Shown piece after piece: positions 34,235 to 62,954 of a stretch of 64,000 bases of DNA (position 1 is its first letter; each line of letters begins with the position of its first letter). A program made the translations under genes and the position numbers. This DNA comes from Elusimicrobiales bacterium (GTDB taxonomy: Bacteria > Elusimicrobiota > Elusimicrobia > Elusimicrobiales > UBA9959), in the NCBI GenBank assembly GCA_031082205.1, contig JAVHLJ010000008.1, positions 1 through 64,000 of the forward strand. Reading direction: 5' to 3'. The notes below the pieces were generated by a model. That model was not told where the DNA came from, ran no database searches, and saw only the letters and a program-made list of their open reading frames with translations.

Positions 34235-34429
34235 ATGGCATTCAAATGTGAACTTTGCGGCAAGGCCCCCAAGGCGGGCAACTCCTACAGCCACTCCCAC
34301 GTGGCGACCAAGAGGCTCTTCAAGCCCAACCTGCAGAAGCAGAAGGTCGTCCTCAAGGGCGCCGTCAAGTCGGTCTACGTCTGCACGACCTGCATAAAGA
34401 GCGGCCGCGCGGTAAGACCGGCCCGCTGA
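34235..34429 (+). CDS. rpmB: 50S ribosomal protein L28
   Basis: 64 aa. MAFKCELCGKAPKAGNSYSH is the standard start, with the zinc-ribbon form of L28: two CxxC pairs (CELC and CTTC). SHVATKRLFKPNLQ is the rRNA-binding loop. A monocistronic gene with its own promoter and terminator. Confidence 0.97.
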   Translation: MAFKCELCGKAPKAGNSYSHSHVATKRLFKPNLQKQKVVLKGAVKSVYVCTTCIKSGRAVRPAR

Positions 34430-34460
34430 AAAGCCTCTCCCCGGGCGCCCTGGCGCTCCA

Positions 34461-34485
34461 GCCGGCCGCGAGGCCGGCTTTTTTT
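34461..34485 (+). terminator. Intrinsic terminator of rpmB
   Basis: GCCGGCC-GCGA-GGCCGGC perfect 7-bp stem followed by seven T. Confidence 0.95.
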
Positions 34486-34546
34486 GTCGCCCGGGCCCGC
34501 CTCCCCTAATTAACAACTATTCAATATTTCCTCAACACGCCGCCTG

Positions 34547-34609
34547 TATAATTATCCTTGAATCGGGCGGCGCAGTCTGCTATTTTATCCGTTGGGCCCC
34601 CGGGGGCCC
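34547..34609 (+). promoter_or_regulatory. -10 box and GC palindrome ahead of the coiled-coil genes
   Basis: TATAAT at 34547-34552 is a likely -10. Between it and the ATG at 34649 lies the perfect 16-base palindrome GGGCCCCCGGGGGCCC (34594-34609) in the presumed leader. It could fold in RNA or bind a protein; no T-tract follows. Confidence 0.45.
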
Positions 34610-34648
34610 TATCGTTCGTTTTCAAAGTCAGCGGAGGACGCTAAAAAA

Positions 34649-37600
34649 ATGGAACAAGAGCCTAAGCTCGACCCGGCGGCGATAAACGATATCGAGACCG
34701 CCAAACTGGCCCTGCGCTGGGCTGTGGAGAAGATCCACACCCTGCAGGACGACAATTCCCGCCTGAAAGAGGACGCGCGGAACAAGACCTCCGCGGTCCG
34801 CTCCCTGACCGCACAGATAGAGCAGAAGGAGGAGGTGCTCAAGAAGTGGCAGGGCACCATCCGGACCTGGGAGGAGAACTGGAAGACCCAGACGGCCATG
34901 GAGGCCGACCTCCGGGCCAAGATCCGGGAGCAGCTTCTCAACGAGGAGACCGCCAACTGGCGCCAGGCCAGGGCGCAGCTGGAGAAGGAGATACAGGCCC
35001 TCAAGCAGGAGCTCTCCGAGAAAGAAGCCGAGATCGGCCGGATAAAGCTTTCCGCCATAGAAGAGTCGCGCAAGACGCAGGAGCTCAAGCAGGAGGAGCT
35101 CGAGGCGGTGCTCAAAAAGCACGAGGACAATTTCGCGGAGCGCGAGAACGCGCTGCGGCTCAGGTACGAGGCTCTGGAAAAGGAGCTGGTGGAGAAATCC
35201 AGGATCGAGGCGGAGCGGGCCGACCTGGAGGCGCGCGGGCGCCTGGAGCTGCGCGAGCGGGAGATCTCCGCGCTGCACAAGGCCAAGGAGGAGCAGCTCG
35301 AGAAGTTCCGCCGGCAGCTGGAGGACGAGCACCTCGCCAGGATGGCCGAGGTATCCGAAAAAGAGGCCGTCGCCGGGCGCGAGGCGAGGCTGAGGCTGGA
35401 GGAGGAGCGGACCCGCCTCCTGGAGGGACTGGAGAAGGAACACGACGAGCGACTGAAAAAGATAGAGGAGCTTTTCGCCGGCCGCCACGAGGAAGCGCTT
35501 AAGCGGCTGGAAGAGCGCGAAAGGGACCTGAAGCAGGAAAAGGAAGCCGAGATGGAGGCCCTGAAGGCCGCCAATCAGCGCGAACTCTCGGAGATCCGCG
35601 ACCGGCTCCAGGGCTATATCCGGCAGCGCGAGCAGGAGTACGTGGAGATGCGGCTGGAGATGGAGCGGCAGGTGGTGGAGCTGGTAAAAAAGCACGACGA
35701 GGAGACCAACGCCGCCTACGAGAAGGCGGTGGAGGAGAGCCGGGAGAAGTGGCGCGAGACCGCCCTCTCCCAGCGCAAGGAGATGGAGTCCGCCGTCGAG
35801 GAGAACAACCGCCGCTGGGAGGCCGACTGGCGCAAGCGCGAAAAAGAGGCGGAGGCGGCGGCGGAGGCCAGGCTCAGGGCCGAGGCCGACAGGCTGCGCC
35901 AGGAGAACAGGCTCAAGGAAGAATCGCTCCGGGGCGCTCTGCTGCGCGAGCAGAACGAGTGGATGCAGCAGCAGGCCCAGGCGCAGGAGGATTCCCGCCG
36001 GGAGCTGGAGATGCATTACGAGGAGCGCCTGCAGTCCGCCCGCCGCTCTCTGGAAGACTCCTACAGGGCGAAGGAGAAGGCCCTCGAGGAACGCGCGGCC
36101 TCCGAAGCAAAACGCTCGGCCGCCGCCTGGCAGGCCAGGGAAGAGGAATGGCTGCTGGAAAAAGAGCGCCTGATCATGTCGGAGAAGGAGCGCCTCAAGG
36201 ACGAATTCCGCAAGTACCGCGACGTGCTCAAGGAGAAGTACGGCCATTTCGAGGACGAGCTCCGGCTCAAGTACGCGCAGCAGGAGCTGGAGGCGGCGGC
36301 GGGCCTCAAGGAGCAGCTCGCGGCCAGGTCCGCGGAGCTGGAGGAAGCCGCCAGACAGGAGAGGGAGAAGACAAGGGCCGAACTCGACGCGCAGCGCCAG
36401 GCCCTGCAGGCCCGGGAGGCGCGGCTGGAGGAGACGCTCAAGGACGTGCGCCGCGGTCATCAGCAGGAGCTGCTCGCCGCCGAGAAAGCGGCCGCGGAGA
36501 AGCTCCGCGCCTGGAAGGAAGAACAGGAGAGGCTTTTCGCCGAGAAGCTGGCGCAGCGCGAGGAAATGCTGAAAGGCGAATATTCCGACAGGGCCGCCCG
36601 CCTTGAGGACGAGAAAGCGTCCTTCCTGCGCGACCTCGCCGGCAGGGAGAAGGACCTGGACGCCCGGCTGGAGCAGGCGAAGGCGGAATACGCCCGCCGG
36701 CTGGCGGAGGAGAAGCGCCGCCTGGAGGACTCGCTCAAGCCCCGGGAACTCGCCGTGAAGAACCGCGAGGCAGAGATAGACGCGGCCAAGGCCCGCCTGG
36801 AACAGGAGCTGGGCGAGGCCAAGATAAAGCTGCTGCAGGAAGCGCAGGTCAAGGATCACGAGAATTTCGAGAAGCTGGCGCGCGCCAGGGAGGAGATGTA
36901 CAGGGCCCTGGACTCCCACCGGGCCTCCCTGGAACAGGAACACGACAAGCGCCTGGAGGAGCTGCGCGGCAAGGAAGCCGCGATGCAGAAACACTTCGAG
37001 GAGAAAACGGCGGAACTCTCCGCCGCCATGCGCCGGCAGCGCGACGAAGAGCGGGAAAAGGCCGCCCTGGAGGCCGAGGCCCGCAAGGCCGAACTGGAAG
37101 CCTCCTTCCAGGACAAGATAAAGAAGATCGAGGCGGACTTCGCGGACAGGACGGCCCGCCTGGAGGCGTCGTTCGACGCCAGGGCCAGGGAGCACCTGGC
37201 GGCCCAGGAGGCCTCCCTCAACCGCCGCCGCGAAGAGCTCGAGGCCGCGGCCCGGCAGAAAGAGATGGACCTGGAGCGCCGCTACCTGGAGCTGGGCCAG
37301 AAGATATCGGCCGACAGCGAGAAGGACCGCACGGCCTGGGAGGCGCAGAAAACCGAACTGATCAGCCGGGAGCGCCAGGCGCTGCGGGCCGAGTTCGAGA
37401 AGAAGGAAGCCCTGCTGGGCCAGAAGCTGGACGACGAGCTCTCCCGCTCCAAGCAGGCGCGGCTCAAGCTGGAGGAGGAATTCTCCAAGCGCAAGGACGA
37501 GCTGGAGCGCCACTACCACTCGGAACTGGAGAAGTCCCGCGCCGCCATGGACAAGCTGCGCAAGGAGCTGGAGGACGCGCTGCGGGCCAGGCTGAAGGAA

Positions 37601-37771
37601 GCGGAAGAGGAGAAGAACCGGCTCACGCTGATGGCCTGCCAGAAAGAGGAAGAGTATCTGGACCGTTACCAGAAGAAAGAGGAAGAACTGATGGCCTTCT
37701 GGGGCAAAAAGCAGAAAGAACTGGAAGAGCGCTACGACAGACTGAAGAAGGAGAAGGGCGGGGCGGCCTGA
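34649..37771 (+). CDS. Giant coiled-coil protein 1 (1040 aa)
   Basis: 1040 aa from the ATG at 34649 (GGAGG 11 bases upstream). After a short N-terminal part (MEQEPKLDPAAINDIETAKLA), almost the whole length is Glu/Lys/Arg/Ala/Leu-rich heptad-repeat sequence with almost no Pro or Gly and no membrane segment or known domain. The predicted rod is on the order of 1000 residues, like bacterial cytoskeletal or scaffold coiled coils. The C terminus (FWGKKQKELEERYDRLKKE) is the only distinctive end. The gene is 16 bases from a second protein of the same style; they probably form one complex. No closer family recognised. Confidence 0.88.
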   Translation: MEQEPKLDPAAINDIETAKLALRWAVEKIHTLQDDNSRLKEDARNKTSAVRSLTAQIEQKEEVLKKWQGTIRTWEENWKTQTAMEADLRAKIREQLLNEETANWRQARAQLEKEIQALKQELSEKEAEIGRIKLSAIEESRKTQELKQEELEAVLKKHEDNFAERENALRLRYEALEKELVEKSRIEAERADLEARGRLELREREISALHKAKEEQLEKFRRQLEDEHLARMAEVSEKEAVAGREARLRLEEERTRLLEGLEKEHDERLKKIEELFAGRHEEALKRLEERERDLKQEKEAEMEALKAANQRELSEIRDRLQGYIRQREQEYVEMRLEMERQVVELVKKHDEETNAAYEKAVEESREKWRETALSQRKEMESAVEENNRRWEADWRKREKEAEAAAEARLRAEADRLRQENRLKEESLRGALLREQNEWMQQQAQAQEDSRRELEMHYEERLQSARRSLEDSYRAKEKALEERAASEAKRSAAAWQAREEEWLLEKERLIMSEKERLKDEFRKYRDVLKEKYGHFEDELRLKYAQQELEAAAGLKEQLAARSAELEEAARQEREKTRAELDAQRQALQAREARLEETLKDVRRGHQQELLAAEKAAAEKLRAWKEEQERLFAEKLAQREEMLKGEYSDRAARLEDEKASFLRDLAGREKDLDARLEQAKAEYARRLAEEKRRLEDSLKPRELAVKNREAEIDAAKARLEQELGEAKIKLLQEAQVKDHENFEKLARAREEMYRALDSHRASLEQEHDKRLEELRGKEAAMQKHFEEKTAELSAAMRRQRDEEREKAALEAEARKAELEASFQDKIKKIEADFADRTARLEASFDARAREHLAAQEASLNRRREELEAAARQKEMDLERRYLELGQKISADSEKDRTAWEAQKTELISRERQALRAEFEKKEALLGQKLDDELSRSKQARLKLEEEFSKRKDELERHYHSELEKSRAAMDKLRKELEDALRARLKEAEEEKNRLTLMACQKEEEYLDRYQKKEEELMAFWGKKQKELEERYDRLKKEKGGAA

Positions 37772-37787
37772 ACGCCCCGCGGCCCTT

Positions 37788-40697
37788 ATGTCCGGAAGCG
37801 GCGACTACGAGGAAATACTGAGGGAGACCGAGCTCGACTCGGCCAAGATGATCCTCAGGCTCACCTCCGAACTCAGGGAGAAGGAGGCGGAACTCTCCAC
37901 CCTGCGGTCGCGCTCTTTCGAGGAGATACAGCGCAGCAACAAGGCCAAGGACGCGGAATACGAGGCGCTGATGCGGGGCCACGAGGACCGCATCAAGAAA
38001 CGGGAGCAGGAGGTGGCCCAGCTCCTGGTGGAGAAGGAATCCTCCCTCTGGCAGAAATACCAGAAGATGCTCGACGAGGCGATCTCCCTCCACCGCGCCG
38101 AGCTCGAAGAAGAACGGGACAGGCTCAGGGCCGAGATAGCCCGCAAGGAAGAGGAGATCTCCGAGCAGAAGCGCAGGCTGCGCGCGGAGATGGAGCAGGT
38201 CTTCCGCCAGTGGCAGGGGGAGCGCGAGTCGGAATTCAAGGCCGAAAGGGAAACTTTCATAGAGCAGATGAAGCTCGGCAGGGAAATGGCCAGGAAAGAG
38301 GCGGCCGAGCAGACCAAAAAGCTGGAAGCCATCTGGGAACAGCGGCTCCTGCAGGCCCGGGAGGAGCAGGACGCGCGCCACCGCCTGGAGACGGAGGCGG
38401 CGGCCAGGGACCTGGGCGAAAAGCACCTGGCCGCGATCAAGGACCTTTCCGAAAAGCTCTCCGCCGAATTCGCGGAAAGGGAAAGGCAGCTTTACGCCAC
38501 TTATTCCGCCTGGCTCGAAGACAATAAAAAACTTTCCGACAAGACGCTCTCGGAGCGGCTGTCCCAGGTGGAAGCGGATTTTTCCTCGCGGCTATCCAAA
38601 ACGGAAGAGCTCCTGGCCGAAGCCGGCCGTGAGCTCGCCCGCAGGCAGCAGGACTGGGCCGCGGAGAAGGAGCAGCTGCGCAGGCGGCAGGAAGAGCGGG
38701 AGCTGGAACTCCTGGCCCGTCAAAAAGAGCTGGAGGAAGAGGCGAGGGCCGCGGAGAAGGCCCTGGCCGAAAAGGCGGCCAGGCTGGAGGAAGAATCCCG
38801 CCGCGCCACGGCCGCCGCCAGGGCCGAACTGGAGGCCAGGGAGAAACGGCTTACCCGGGAACTGGAAACCCGCAAGAACGAGTTCCGCTCCGAAATGGAG
38901 AAAGCCGAAGCGGAAGCCGCGGAAAAGAAACGCGAGCTGGCCGCGGAACAGGCCAGGCTCCAGTCCTACAGGGCGCAGATGTCGGAACAACTGCGCGCGA
39001 GGGAGGCCGAGCTTTCGGCCTCTTTCGAGGAACAACTGGCGCTGCACAGGGCCTCGCTGGAAGAAGGGCTGGCCATGAAGGAAAAAGCCCTCTCCGCCAG
39101 GTACTCCGAAATAGAGCGCCGCAGCGTATCGCTGAAAAAGCAGCTGGAGGAGCGCGCGGCCGAGAACGAAAAGCTCAAGAACGACAACCTCTTCCTGGCG
39201 GCCCAGATAGCGGAAAGAGAGAAGGCCTTCGAGTCCTTCTCCGCCGCGGAAAAAGCCAGGATAGAGGAAGCCAGGAGGAAGCTGGAAGACTCCTACCGCT
39301 CCCGCGCCGCCGAACTGGAAGCCGCCTTTTCGGCGCGGGAGAAGGCCGCGGCGGAAGAGTTCTCCCGCAGGCTGGCCGCGGAGCAGGCGCGCTTCGAGGC
39401 GAGGGACCTCAACCGCGAACAGGCTTTCAGGGCCCGGCAGGAAGAGCTGCTGGCCAGGGAAGCCGGCTTCGAAAAACGTTTCATCGAAGAGGTGAAGGAC
39501 CGCGAGGCCCGGATAGAGGCGGGGTTCAAAGGCGTGGTCCAGGACCTCAACCGGAAGATCAGGGAAAGCGCCGAGGAGGCCGACCGGGCCCTGGCGGAGG
39601 AACGGGCCTCCGCGCGCGCGGAGCTGGAGGGCCTGCGGTCCCGCTACGAGGCCCTGCTGCAGGAGCGGGCGTCCGCGCAGGCTTCGGCCATGCAGTCGGC
39701 CCGCGACGAGGCGGCGAAACGGGCCTCCGAGCAGGCGGAGATAGAGAAGCAGACCCTGAAAGAACGGCTCGAGGCCAGGGCGGAAGAGGCCCTGTCCAGG
39801 GCCCGCGCCCTTGAAGAGCAGGCCAGGCTGGCGTCAAAGGGCCGGGAGCAGGCCATGGAGGCCGCCAATCTGGCCAAGCAGGAGCTGGAGACCGCCAGCA
39901 TCCGTATCGAGGAACTCGAGCACGAGAAACAGCTTCTCATACAGGAGAACATAAACAAGTCCCGCGACCTGAGGCAGGTCATGGAGAAGGACTATCTCCA
40001 GAAACTGGAGACGATAGAACAGAATTACCTGCGGCAGATGGCCGAGGTGGTAAAGAACTCCGGCGTGACGGAGAAATCACAGCAGGAGGACTTCTTCGGC
40101 AAGATGGAGTTCCTGCGCAAAGAGCTGGCGGCCCGCTACCAGGCACAGGCCGCGGACCTGGAGAAAGCCTACCTGGAGCGGGAGCGCAAGATAGCGTCCT
40201 CGCTGGAAGGGACTTTCGCGCTCAAAGAGAAAGCCCTGCAGACCCGCTACGAGCAGCTCGAGAGAAGCTACCAGTCCATCATGTCCGGGAAGCTCATGGA
40301 GATAGAGAAGGACCGCGCCGCGGCCGAGAGCGTGGCCAGGCTGCAGGCGGAGCTGGAGGAGAAGAACCGCGAGCTGGAAGAAAAAGTGCGGACGCAGGAC
40401 GAAAAACTGCGCGGCCTCGCCGAAAGGCTCGAGGCGGCGTTCGCGGAACGGCAGAAAGAACTGGAGTCCTCCCTCAAGCTCAAGGTCGCGCAGGCGGAGA
40501 CCGACAGGGCCAAGCTCAAAGCCCTCATGGAGCAGGAGCAGCAGATAGTTGCCAACCTGCAGAAGCGCGAGGTGGCGCTGCAGGACGCCTACGCCCGCAA
40601 GGAAGCGGAAATGGCCAAAGAGTTCAAAGAGACCCGCGAGCGCCTGGAGAAGGAATACCAGCGCAAGCTCGGTGAAAGCAAGCCCGGCGGGGGCTGA
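37788..40697 (+). CDS. Giant coiled-coil protein 2 (969 aa)
   Basis: 969 aa. The N terminus (MSGSGDYEEILRETELDSAKMILRL) parallels DIETAKLALRW of the first protein: a short head with an acidic/AK motif, then a continuous heptad rod. Composition is dominated by Glu, Ala, Lys, Arg and Leu. Weak interruptions occur near 740-790 (NYLRQMAEVVKNSGVTEKSQQEDFFGK). There is no transmembrane helix and no signal peptide. Similar length, style and head suggest the pair arose by duplication and may co-assemble. No strong Shine-Dalgarno is seen, so coupling to gene 1 is likely. Confidence 0.88.
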   Translation: MSGSGDYEEILRETELDSAKMILRLTSELREKEAELSTLRSRSFEEIQRSNKAKDAEYEALMRGHEDRIKKREQEVAQLLVEKESSLWQKYQKMLDEAISLHRAELEEERDRLRAEIARKEEEISEQKRRLRAEMEQVFRQWQGERESEFKAERETFIEQMKLGREMARKEAAEQTKKLEAIWEQRLLQAREEQDARHRLETEAAARDLGEKHLAAIKDLSEKLSAEFAERERQLYATYSAWLEDNKKLSDKTLSERLSQVEADFSSRLSKTEELLAEAGRELARRQQDWAAEKEQLRRRQEERELELLARQKELEEEARAAEKALAEKAARLEEESRRATAAARAELEAREKRLTRELETRKNEFRSEMEKAEAEAAEKKRELAAEQARLQSYRAQMSEQLRAREAELSASFEEQLALHRASLEEGLAMKEKALSARYSEIERRSVSLKKQLEERAAENEKLKNDNLFLAAQIAEREKAFESFSAAEKARIEEARRKLEDSYRSRAAELEAAFSAREKAAAEEFSRRLAAEQARFEARDLNREQAFRARQEELLAREAGFEKRFIEEVKDREARIEAGFKGVVQDLNRKIRESAEEADRALAEERASARAELEGLRSRYEALLQERASAQASAMQSARDEAAKRASEQAEIEKQTLKERLEARAEEALSRARALEEQARLASKGREQAMEAANLAKQELETASIRIEELEHEKQLLIQENINKSRDLRQVMEKDYLQKLETIEQNYLRQMAEVVKNSGVTEKSQQEDFFGKMEFLRKELAARYQAQAADLEKAYLERERKIASSLEGTFALKEKALQTRYEQLERSYQSIMSGKLMEIEKDRAAAESVARLQAELEEKNRELEEKVRTQDEKLRGLAERLEAAFAERQKELESSLKLKVAQAETDRAKLKALMEQEQQIVANLQKREVALQDAYARKEAEMAKEFKETRERLEKEYQRKLGESKPGGG

Positions 40698-44190: not shown

Positions 44191-45858
44191 TTAGAACAAC
44201 CCCGTAACGCTGCCGTCGGCGTCTATGTCCATTTTCTCCGAAGCCGGATGCTCCGGCAGGCCGGGCATGCGCATGATGTCGCCGGTGATCGGGATCAGGA
44301 AGCCCGCGCCCGCCGCCACCTCTATCTCCCGCACGGTCACCACGAAATCCTTGGGCCGGCCGATGAGCTCCGGGTTGTCGGAGAGCGACTTCTGGGTCTT
44401 GGCTATGCAGACCGGCAGCTTGTCCAGCCCCAGGCCGGTTATCTTCTCAAGGTCCTTCTTCGCGCGGGGAGTGTAGTCGATGTGCTTCGCCCCGTACATC
44501 TTCCCGGCTACGGCCTCTATCTTCTTCTCCACCGGCCAGTTCCAGTCGTATATCGGCTCGAAGCCGGGGCAGCAGTCCGCGGCCTTGAGCACCATGCGCG
44601 CCAGCTCCTCGGCGCCGCGCCCGCCCTGGCCCCACACGTCGGCCACCGCGACGGGCACGCCCAGCGCCGCGCAGCGGTCCCTTACGACCGATATCTCCTC
44701 GTCCGTATCGTCCGCGAACTTATTTATGGCTATTACCGGAGAGACCTTGAACTGCTTCATGTTCTCGACGTGTTTCTCCAGGTTCTCCAGCCCCCTGGCC
44801 ACGCGGGCGGGGTCCGGCCGCTTTATCTCCTTCAGGTCGGCGCCGCCGTGGTACTTGAGCGCGCGCACGGTGGCCACCAGCACCGCCGCCGACGGCGCTA
44901 TGCCGGCGTAGCGGCACTTGATGTCGAGGAACTTCTCGGCGCCCAGTTCGAAAGCGAAACCCGCCTCGGTCACCACGTAATCGGAAAGGCTCATGCCCAT
45001 GCGCGTGGCTATTATCGAATTGCAGCCGTGCGCGATATTGGCGAACGGCCCGCCGTGTATGATGGCGGGAGTGCCCTCGCTGGTCTGCACCAGGTTGGGC
45101 ATCAGCGCGTCCTTGAGCAGGGCCGCCATCGCGCCGCTGGCCTTGAGGTCGCGGGCGTAGACCGGTTTGCGGTCGTAGGTGTATCCGACGAAGATGTTCC
45201 CCAGTTTCTCCTTGAGGTGGACGAAATTCTCGGAGAGGCAGAGTATGGCCATCACTTCCGACGCGGCCACTATGTCGAAGCCGGTCTCGCGCGGGACCCC
45301 GCTCATCGTGCCGCCCAGGCCCACTATGATCTTGCGCAGCGACCTGTCGTTCATGTCCATCACGCGCCGCCAGGCCACGGTGCGCGGGTCGATGCCGAGG
45401 TTGTTCTTCTTGTTCTGGATATTGTTGTCTATCATCGCCGCGAGCAGGTTGTGGGCCTTCTCGATGGCGGCGAAATCGCCGGTGAAGTGCAGGTTGATGT
45501 CCTCCATCGGCAGGACCTGGGACCAGCCGCCGCCCGTAGCCCCCCCCTTGACGCCGAACACCGGGCCCAGCGAGGGCTCGCGCAGCACGACCATCGTCTT
45601 TTTCCCGATACGGTTGAGCCCCAGCGACAGGCCGATGGACACGGTGGTCTTGCCCTCGCCGGCCGGGGTAGGGGAGATGGCCGAGACAAGGATAAGCCGG
45701 CTGCGCTTCGCTTTTTCCCGGTCGATGAGACGCAGCGGGAGCTTGGCCTTGTATTTGCCGTAGTAGTGGAGATCGTCCTCCGGCACGCCGAGCCCGGCCG
45801 CGATGTCGCGCACGTGCCTGAGACTTATCTTCCTGGCTATTTCGATATCGGTAGGCAT
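44191..45858 (-). CDS. fhs: Formate--tetrahydrofolate ligase
   Basis: 555 aa from the ATG at 45858 (MPTDIEIARK, the conserved start; GGGGGA just upstream). The ATP loop PTPAGEGKTT is near 64-73, and the family hallmarks REPSLGPVFGVKGGATGGG near 95 and LHFTGDFAAI near 124 follow. It makes 10-formyl-THF from formate and ATP, for purines or for C1 flow. No other Wood-Ljungdahl gene is in the window. Confidence 0.97.
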   Translation of the reverse strand: MPTDIEIARKISLRHVRDIAAGLGVPEDDLHYYGKYKAKLPLRLIDREKAKRSRLILVSAISPTPAGEGKTTVSIGLSLGLNRIGKKTMVVLREPSLGPVFGVKGGATGGGWSQVLPMEDINLHFTGDFAAIEKAHNLLAAMIDNNIQNKKNNLGIDPRTVAWRRVMDMNDRSLRKIIVGLGGTMSGVPRETGFDIVAASEVMAILCLSENFVHLKEKLGNIFVGYTYDRKPVYARDLKASGAMAALLKDALMPNLVQTSEGTPAIIHGGPFANIAHGCNSIIATRMGMSLSDYVVTEAGFAFELGAEKFLDIKCRYAGIAPSAAVLVATVRALKYHGGADLKEIKRPDPARVARGLENLEKHVENMKQFKVSPVIAINKFADDTDEEISVVRDRCAALGVPVAVADVWGQGGRGAEELARMVLKAADCCPGFEPIYDWNWPVEKKIEAVAGKMYGAKHIDYTPRAKKDLEKITGLGLDKLPVCIAKTQKSLSDNPELIGRPKDFVVTVREIEVAAGAGFLIPITGDIMRMPGLPEHPASEKMDIDADGSVTGLF

Positions 45859-61698: not shown

Positions 61699-62328
61699 CT
61701 ACGACGGATCCTTGAGGGCGGCCACCGCGGCCTCCAGGGCCGCGACCCGCGCCTCCAGTTCCGCCAGCCTGTCCGGCCGGAGCGGTACGGGGACACCATG
61801 CGGCACGGCGTCCCCCGCCGATACGGCGGGCGCGCCGGAGAAAAGATGCGCGAAGCGGGTCTCTTTCTGGCCGGCCTGGCGCGGCAGGCGCGCCACCATC
61901 GGCTCGGGCCTGGCCGCGAGCTCCTGCAGCAGTCCTTCCACCTCGGCCGGGCCGGCGAACTGGCAGAGCCTCTCGCTCCTGCCCTTTATCTCGCCGGGAG
62001 TCTGCGGCCCCCGCAGCAGGAGAACTATGAAAGCGCCGGTGACCTTGGGATCGTCGGTGCCGAGCAGGGCGCTTATGCGGTGGCGGAACTTGGGCACGCG
62101 GTCGCCGGGGGCCTGAACCCTCTCGGCCAGCCCCTTGTCGATCAGGGACTGCACGGCCCGTCCCATGGTGTCGAGGTCCAGGGTCATCACCGGTTCCCGG
62201 CTGGTCTTCTGGTTGCAGGCGGCCTGGAGCGAGTTGAAAGTGAGCGGGTACTGCTCCCTGACGGTGAGGGATTTTTCGGCAAGCGCGCCCAACACCCTGG
62301 CCTCGGCTTCATCGAGCTGTATCGGCAT
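61699..62328 (-). CDS. yceH: YceH/DUF480 family protein
   Basis: 209 aa from the ATG at 62328. Two winged-helix domains: LDEAEARVLGALAEKSLTVREQYPLT and FNSLQAACNQKTSREPVMTLD..., the DUF480 signature, then LLLRGPQTPGEIKGRSERL. Residues about 166-186 (AVSAGDAVPHGVPVPLRPD) are encoded by a REP-like repeat. A short coiled coil (LAELEARVAALEAAVAALK) ends it. Confidence 0.93.
   Translation of the reverse strand: MPIQLDEAEARVLGALAEKSLTVREQYPLTFNSLQAACNQKTSREPVMTLDLDTMGRAVQSLIDKGLAERVQAPGDRVPKFRHRISALLGTDDPKVTGAFIVLLLRGPQTPGEIKGRSERLCQFAGPAEVEGLLQELAARPEPMVARLPRQAGQKETRFAHLFSGAPAVSAGDAVPHGVPVPLRPDRLAELEARVAALEAAVAALKDPS
61773..61831. repeat. REP-like hairpin, copy 3, inside yceH
   Basis: The core GGGGACACCATGCGGCACGG then CGTCCCC at 61789-61815 keeps most of the stem with compensating changes. 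The flanks match copy 2 in reverse complement over about 60 bases. It lies in frame in the yceH linker between DUF480 and coiled coil. Confidence 0.82.
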
Positions 62329-62339
62329 GTTCCCCCCCG

Positions 62340-62954
62340 CTATTCTTTCCATCCGGTCACCGAGGCGATGAGCAGCCGCAGCTTGCGCTCTATTTCCTCC
62401 TCGCGTACCGAGCCGGCCGGCGAGGAGGCGGCGTGCAGCATCGCCCCGAAAAGCGAATCCTGTATGAGCGCGGCGGCCGCGTCCGGATCGGATACGCTGA
62501 AGAGCCGCTCCCGCCCGCCGGCCAGCAGGTGGGCCTTTATGCGCTCGCGCCCCCCCGCTATCATGCCGGAAAAAAGAGAGGCGAAGTCAGCCCCTCTCCC
62601 CGCCAGGTAGTAGAGAAGTATCAGGACCTGCGCGTCGCTATCCCGGTAGCGCAGGGCCCAAAGAACATTGCCCAGGCAGTGCTTGAGCAGGCGGCGGCCG
62701 GAATCGTCGGCGATGTCGGACAGGGCGTCCACCGTCTCGTGATTATGGCGGACTATGGTCTCCACCATGCCGCGGAAAAGAGAGTTCTTGTCGGGGAAAT
62801 GGTACATTACGGCCGACTGACTGAGCCCGAGCTCGTCGGCTATCATCTGGAAGCTCATATCGGCGAAACCGCGGTCCGCGGCCAGTTTTATGGCGGAATG
62901 CAGTATCCTGCCCCTGGTCGCTTCCCCTTTGGTAGTCTCCGGCCTGGTCTTCAT
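62340..62954 (-). CDS. TetR/AcrR family transcriptional regulator
   Basis: 204 aa. HTH at 15-60: RGRILHSAIKLAADRGFADMSFQMIADELGLSQSAVMYHFPDKNSLF. The C-terminal ligand domain is unassigned. It is 11 bases upstream of yceH in the same direction. Its promoter boxes touch the start codon. Confidence 0.93.
   Translation of the reverse strand: MKTRPETTKGEATRGRILHSAIKLAADRGFADMSFQMIADELGLSQSAVMYHFPDKNSLFRGMVETIVRHNHETVDALSDIADDSGRRLLKHCLGNVLWALRYRDSDAQVLILLYYLAGRGADFASLFSGMIAGGRERIKAHLLAGGRERLFSVSDPDAAAALIQDSLFGAMLHAASSPAGSVREEEIERKLRLLIASVTGWKE

Follow-up and report, generated by a model that had tools for sequence, protein, structure and literature searches.

Paired hendecad coiled-coil rods of Elusimicrobiota as candidate scaffolds of a non-flagellar envelope machine

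Two adjacent genes, here called A and B, lie in a 64,000-nucleotide stretch of DNA (the window) from the 2.75-Mb genome of an uncultured Elusimicrobiota bacterium and very probably encode members of a new family, conserved scaffold rods that form hendecad coiled coils. We further propose, at a probability of roughly 45%, that these rods serve a force-generating, non-flagellar and proton-driven envelope machine. This proposal is made because the promoter element of A also stands before a kinase operon, a MotA–MotB operon and a GYF-like/TolQ operon; such promoter sharing is the one observation that points to a motor role.

A conserved pair of long rod genes

The initial annotation described two neighbouring genes of 1040 and 969 residues, and the coordinates (Table 1) and codon counts agree. 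The genes are separated by 16 nt, and their immediate neighbours are housekeeping genes. On the upstream side, rpmB lies 350-653 bp 5' of A, with the order rpmB–A kept in 25 of 26 orthologous loci; on the downstream side, B is followed by what we take to be a pyruvoyl-dependent arginine decarboxylase gene and then, presumably, an agmatinase-like gene.

Among 61 sampled genomes, 34 gave a match to A and 29 to B. Every match fell within the window's own family (f1); in the same sample, f2, the gut-type sister family, yielded neither gene in any of its 24 genomes. Nor was B detected outside f1 among 26 genomes tested. Full-length orthologs with 24-90% identity occur across nearly the whole Elusimicrobiota family with the adjacency of the two genes kept, many of them aligning end to end over ~1000 aa, and a few genomes keep A with B missing or undetected. 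Measured against two sister species, the dN/dS of A and B is 0.09-0.15, which denotes strong purifying selection and falls within the range of neighbouring enzymes (the M16 peptidases nearby and what we take to be formate-tetrahydrofolate ligase, encoded at 44191-45858). The dN/dS values and the full-length conservation together indicate that A and B are real genes rather than long open reading frames produced by GC bias.

Table 1. Positions of the features discussed; coordinates refer to the window unless a locus (L) is named.
Feature	Position	Strand	Remarks
rpmB (ribosomal protein L28)	34235..34429	+	identified from its translation; kept neighbour 5' of A
Intrinsic terminator, rpmB/A intergenic	34460..34485	+	8-bp stem and T run
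Conserved promoter element AATATTTnnnnAACAnnCCnnnTGTATAAT	34523..34552	+	conserved 5' of A across several genera
16-bp GC palindrome	34594..34609	.	not conserved, probably incidental
GGAGG ribosome-binding site of A	34633..34637	+	from sequence
Gene A	34649..37771	+	1040-aa coiled-coil rod protein, ATG at 34649
A head motif D-x-E-T-A-K-L-A-L-R-W-A-V-E-K	34688..34732	+	residues 14-28; predicted helix start at residue 15
A heptad segment	34694..34948	+	residues ~16-100; spectral peak 3.50, power 9.2
A hendecad rod	34949..37708	+	residues ~101-1020; peak 3.66-3.68 in 27/27 orthologs
Gene B	37788..40697	+	969-aa coiled-coil rod protein, ATG at 37788
B head motif E-L-D-S-A-K-M-I-L-R-L-T-S-E-L-R-E-K-E-A	37830..37889	+	residues 15-34
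B hendecad rod	38088..40637	+	residues ~101-950; peak 3.64-3.66 in 25/25 orthologs; predicted break at residues 754-763
Giant head-rod-histidine kinase (f7/f8; 2057-2859 aa)	L107 2586-11165	-	
Giant head-rod-histidine kinase (f7/f8; 2057-2859 aa)	L124 3207-11006	-	
Giant head-rod-histidine kinase (f7/f8; 2057-2859 aa)	L109 3652-9825	+	
Giant head-rod-histidine kinase (f7/f8; 2057-2859 aa)	L134 3264-10052	-	
FliF_C-FliG fusion adjoining MotA/MotB	L196 3491-4942		bacterium without flagellin
FliF_C-FliG fusion adjoining MotA/MotB	L143 2609-4024		bacterium without flagellin
FliF_C-FliG fusion adjoining MotA/MotB	L195 9284-12322		bacterium without flagellin

The rods are built on 11-residue repeats

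The proteins were at first read as nearly uninterrupted heptads. Their hydrophobic periodicity, taken as mean windowed spectral power in a sliding analysis, instead peaks at 3.68 in A and 3.64 in B, and every ortholog repeats this behavior (Table 1). At 3.50, the power of A is 0.86 against a shuffled mean of 1.01 and that of B is 1.46, compared with 3.84 for the heptad control, the MukB coiled coil, which peaks at 3.44-3.48. The rods of A and B are thus hendecad (11/3), not 7-residue, coiled coils, and the heptad description holds only for a short segment of A that follows the start of its helix (residues 16-100, peak 3.50, versus 3.66 for residues 11-100 of B). The sizes of ortholog indels cluster at 4, 7, 11, 15, 18, 22, 26, 29, 33 and 40 residues, all multiples of 11/3, as counted in ortholog pairs of at least 42% identity that are not independent of one another. 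These indels correspond to whole turns of the 11/3 stripe, which lends the hendecad reading independent support and shows selection on the register of the rod.

AlphaFold2 models computed from ortholog alignments place helices at residues 15-330, 340-493 and 516-1035 of A (pLDDT 66) and at residues 8-753 and 764-960 of B (pLDDT 73); these are single-chain models, and their pTM of 0.23-0.25 is low, as expected for lone rods. Both proteins are almost wholly helical, and a full rod would measure ~150 nm at 0.15 nm per residue. The monomer models contain no globular or folded domain, and neither protein has a Pfam or NCBIfam match, in line with the earlier statement that no other domain is present. 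The proposal of a soluble rod or scaffold pair is likewise supported by proteins that are all-helical, domain-free, conserved at full length and distinct from SMC/SbcC. The word pair requires a distinction: it stands for the conserved gene pair, but a full-length, in-register A–B heterodimer is unsupported and was rejected, because where one protein has a large indel the other lacks a counterpart, and the lengths of the two are uncorrelated (r = 0.20). An asymmetry of the charges flanking the stripe, considered as evidence for a parallel dimer, was also discarded, as it arose with a register fitted to all residues and vanished with a hydrophobic-only register.

A class-wide head family with kinase-linked members

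The short heads DIETAKLALRW and ELDSAKMILRL had been noted as similar, and this similarity is kept in the orthologs, where D, A and L are invariant. The invariant residues are D14, T17, A18, L22 and W24 in A, and D17, A19, K20, L25, S27, E28 and L29 in B. Besides A and B, the window's own genome encodes C (1285 aa), D (882 aa) and E (913 aa). The heads of A, B and C can be aligned, and those of A, C, E and the kinase-linked proteins match one another. A profile of the A and C heads detects the family in 93 of 295 Elusimicrobiota genomes, all belonging to the window's class and often carrying several copies; restriction of the family to Elusimicrobiota was assessed inside the phylum and by one narrow peptide scan. 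Phyletic distribution, put forward at the outset as a check, separates A and B, matched only in f1 among the 61 sampled genomes, from a head family that is class-wide. The accompanying claim that such rods are rare in bacteria must be qualified, given this class-wide family and at least five such proteins in one genome. No head-family member was found in the listed gut-type f2 genomes (1.3-1.7 Mb) of the 295-genome phylum sample, which suggests loss of the family with host association in f2.

A tree of the heads separates four groups: B, C, the kinase-linked heads, and A, which is joined by A-like genes from five other families. B diverges most, and the position of E is uncertain. At L119 6810-10251 (contig C1 of the window's genome) and at L108 and L110, E is a rod of 913-2006 aa with the same head, and next to it comes a coil protein of 232-244 aa that is itself conserved; in the window's genome, polysaccharide export genes adjoin E.

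Immediately 3' of C lies D, with a response regulator next in line (L098 5349-13013, contig C23 of the same genome); D is a heptad coiled coil that ends in HisKA and HATPase_c domains. A pilin gene lies 3' of these three genes, with ftsQ, ftsA and ftsZ further downstream on the same contig. In families f7 and f8, head, hendecad rod (up to ~2500 residues) and kinase are united in one protein (Table 1), and a response-regulator gene lies 3' of it in three of the four loci examined. The kinase domain of D is 37-39% identical to those of the one-piece kinases, and the regulators are 39-42% identical along most of their length. The giant proteins are the fused counterpart of the C–D pair, and because head, rod and kinase are fused in f7 and f8, C and D likely function together. 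These data show that at least one branch of the head family places a kinase on a long rod; A and B may do likewise with another partner.

A promoter element shared with motor operons

Allowing at most 3 mismatches, AATATTTnnnnAACAnnCCnnnTGTATAAT has four matches in the window's own genome and its reversed pattern none, where ~0.002 would be expected from base composition. The four sites precede A–B, the C–D–regulator operon, a MotA–MotB–kinase–regulator operon, and a GYF-like coiled-coil gene followed by TolQ/ExbB, and those not belonging to A each carry 3 mismatches. The element found 5' of A–B, C–kinase, motAB and GYF–tolQ is also written AACAnGCCnnnTGTAnnAT. Across 41 genomes of the family, 62 sites were found, compared with 7 of the reversed pattern. 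A accounts for 23 of the 62, GYF-type genes in three genera for 11, the C operon in two genera for 6 and MotA in five genera for another 6; the remaining 16 precede unrelated or uninspected genes, and sites within one genus are not independent. In g4, the element lies ~1.4 kb upstream of C.

Two other placements were also observed. At L183 (1152-1181) and L152, the element is flanked by genes for a putative lipoprotein and a YceH/DUF480-like protein, with a leader of 400-500 nt, and carries 0 mismatches in G005 and 3 in G016; a YceH/DUF480-like gene is also present in the window (61699-62352). At L186 (1445-1474, reversed) and L187 (1554-1583), it precedes a histidine kinase–regulator operon and Flp/Tad-type pilin genes.

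The leader of A does contain the perfect 16-base GC palindrome that was first pointed out, which is single-copy in the genome, although the window contains five perfect palindromes of 16 bp in all. We rejected it as a regulatory or mRNA element, as it is absent in the sister species G002 and its stem does not exceed those of shuffled leaders; a consensus fold of the leaders found no base pairs.

In the window's genome, a FliF_C–FliG fusion adjoins the MotAB operon, and in three genomes of other genera such a fusion lies 3' of MotA, with MotB downstream in two of the three. Flagellin is absent in 57 of 59 genomes of the family, the window's own included, and the fusion with MotAB in bacteria devoid of flagellin would be a possible non-flagellar rotary motor. 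The GYF-like gene is followed by TolQ/ExbB in the window's genome and by ExbD next in a sister species; here, the GYF-like call comes from a 49-residue alignment, 33% identical, with a relative whose own GYF_2 match is sub-threshold. The idea that GYF_2 and the head family co-occur phylogenetically was considered and dropped, since GYF_2 also occurs in gut Elusimicrobiota that have no heads.

Proposed function and alternative explanations

We propose that A and B are paralogs that act as scaffold rods in the cytoplasm. In each, one long predicted helix begins at a short N-terminal element, D-x-[ED]-[TS]-A-[KR]...L-R, whose D would cap it, and continues, after a short heptad zone in A, as a nearly straight hendecad coiled coil of ~850-920 residues and ~130-140 nm, which most likely self-pairs or packs laterally into bundles. 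Heads of this family recur several times per genome, and the rod of one paralog bears a histidine kinase. A–B would then serve as track or structural scaffold for a trans-envelope machine that is non-flagellar and proton-driven, with surface (gliding-type) motility or envelope polarity as its most plausible purpose. The analysis demonstrates the helices, the hendecad stripe, the conservation, the head family, the link to a kinase and the shared promoter element; from these we infer that A–B oligomerize and form filaments, that a single factor co-regulates the operons and that A–B have a motor role, and the cytoskeletal or scaffold role first suggested for the pair would be sharpened by its co-regulation with motor genes. 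In its widest form, which we consider rather unlikely as a whole, a superfamily of heads and hendecad rods, specific to Elusimicrobiota and not described before, would scaffold a flagellum-free rotary machine in which MotAB and the FliF–FliG fusion work with TolQR and with adaptors of the GYF type. A histidine kinase borne on a rod as long as ~2600 residues would control this machine, which would drive a surface motility distinct from Agl–Glt, T9SS gliding, type IV pili and flagella.

A scaffold for shape, polarity or division, analogous to Scy, FilP or crescentin and acting with no motor, is possible, if on balance doubtful; the shared element would then mark a growth-phase or envelope regulon. 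Scy and FilP have this layout of an N-terminal motif followed by a hendecad rod of >800 aa (PMC9858780), DivIVA is absent in the phylum sample, and C lies near ftsA/ftsZ and pilin genes. That the element recurs, across several genera, 5' of operons for MotA, GYF-type proteins and kinases argues instead for the motor-linked scaffold.

It is improbable that A and B are not coiled coils but amphipathic 11-mer proteins that coat membranes or granules in the manner of apolipoproteins, perilipins or synucleins. The 11-residue periodicity is shared, and the PDB profile search with A matched nothing but apolipoproteins A-IV and E (best E 9e-7), whose repeats are 11/22-mers. In A and B, however, hydrophobic residues occupy ~2-3 of 11 positions with charged residues elsewhere, and prolines are almost lacking (3 in A, 1 in B); because the apolar stripe is so narrow, lipid-surface coating is kept at low weight. 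We regard as very improbable that the rods are single stable α-helices of the ER/K type, serving as spacers that do not pair, a reading raised as a challenge to the original proposal. Their E/K/R content is very high and opposite charges from i to i+4 are enriched 1.4-1.5x in both directions, but a lone helix would have no need of the 11/3 hydrophobic stripe found in every ortholog or of register-preserving indels. The other challenge raised, an SMC/SbcC-like family with its ATPase heads elsewhere, shares long coiled coils, with weak coil-level SMC matches only in paralogs outside the window, and is rejected for A and B, which have neither ATPase nor hinge, no Pfam or NCBIfam match and no globular domain in their models, and are hendecad as against the heptad coil of MukB.

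Comparison with known systems

Like crescentin-type proteins, A and B are soluble rods with short ends and no other domain. They differ in being hendecad and in showing no sequence relation detectable in Pfam: power at 3.5, the measure of a heptad rod of the crescentin or intermediate-filament kind, is at chance in the rod of A and well below the 3.64 peak in that of B. Crescentin is also about half the length of the A and B rods.

AglZ has an N-terminal pseudo-receiver domain before its coiled coil. A and B, by contrast, have no Response_reg match in Pfam, and their helices begin at residues 8-15. The likeness lies in the partnership proposed, that of a long coiled-coil protein with a TolQR/MotAB-type proton motor: in Myxococcus xanthus, AglZ is located at focal adhesions with the AglRQS proton motor (PMC3169522). 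The A promoter element is common to MotA–MotB and TolQ–ExbD operons; unlike in Agl–Glt, this shared element is the only motor link of A–B, and the motor set includes a FliF–FliG fusion.

Compared by description only, Mad20, Mad23, Mad25 and Mad26 of magnetosome chains are likewise coiled-coil proteins that organize a cellular structure in deep-branching bacteria (PMC12748827). A magnetosome (Mad/mae) role for A and B was rejected, again by description only, as the head family is class-wide and the chain-forming Mad proteins are reported to be missing from magnetotactic Elusimicrobiota (PMC12748827).

The closest architecture is that of Scy and FilP from Streptomyces, in which an N-terminal motif and heptads precede an almost entirely hendecad rod, of >1000 residues in Scy (PMC9858780). 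A appears to repeat this order of motif, heptads and long hendecad rod, and the 11/3 peak is present in 52 of 52 A and B orthologs. The head is different and Elusimicrobiota are unrelated to Actinobacteria. The RGYDxxEVD-type motif (searched as GY[DN]xx[QE]V[DN]) occurs in 0 of the 52 orthologs, and the DivIVA Pfam family matches neither A nor B, with PF05103 above cut-off in 0 of the 295 phylum genomes; in view of these absences, A and B are analogous to the Scy/FilP family and not members of it. Such long hendecad rods behind a lineage-specific head are known mainly from the polarity protein Scy, and the class studied here, unrelated to that of Streptomyces, has hendecad rods of its own in several paralogs, some copies of which are fused to a histidine kinase (2000-2860 residues). 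With DivIVA nearly absent phylum-wide and flagellin nearly absent in the family, these rods may fill a polarity or motility role in a different way, and the promoter element would place A–B in a small, testable regulon with proton-channel motors, a concrete target for the cell biology of Elusimicrobiota.
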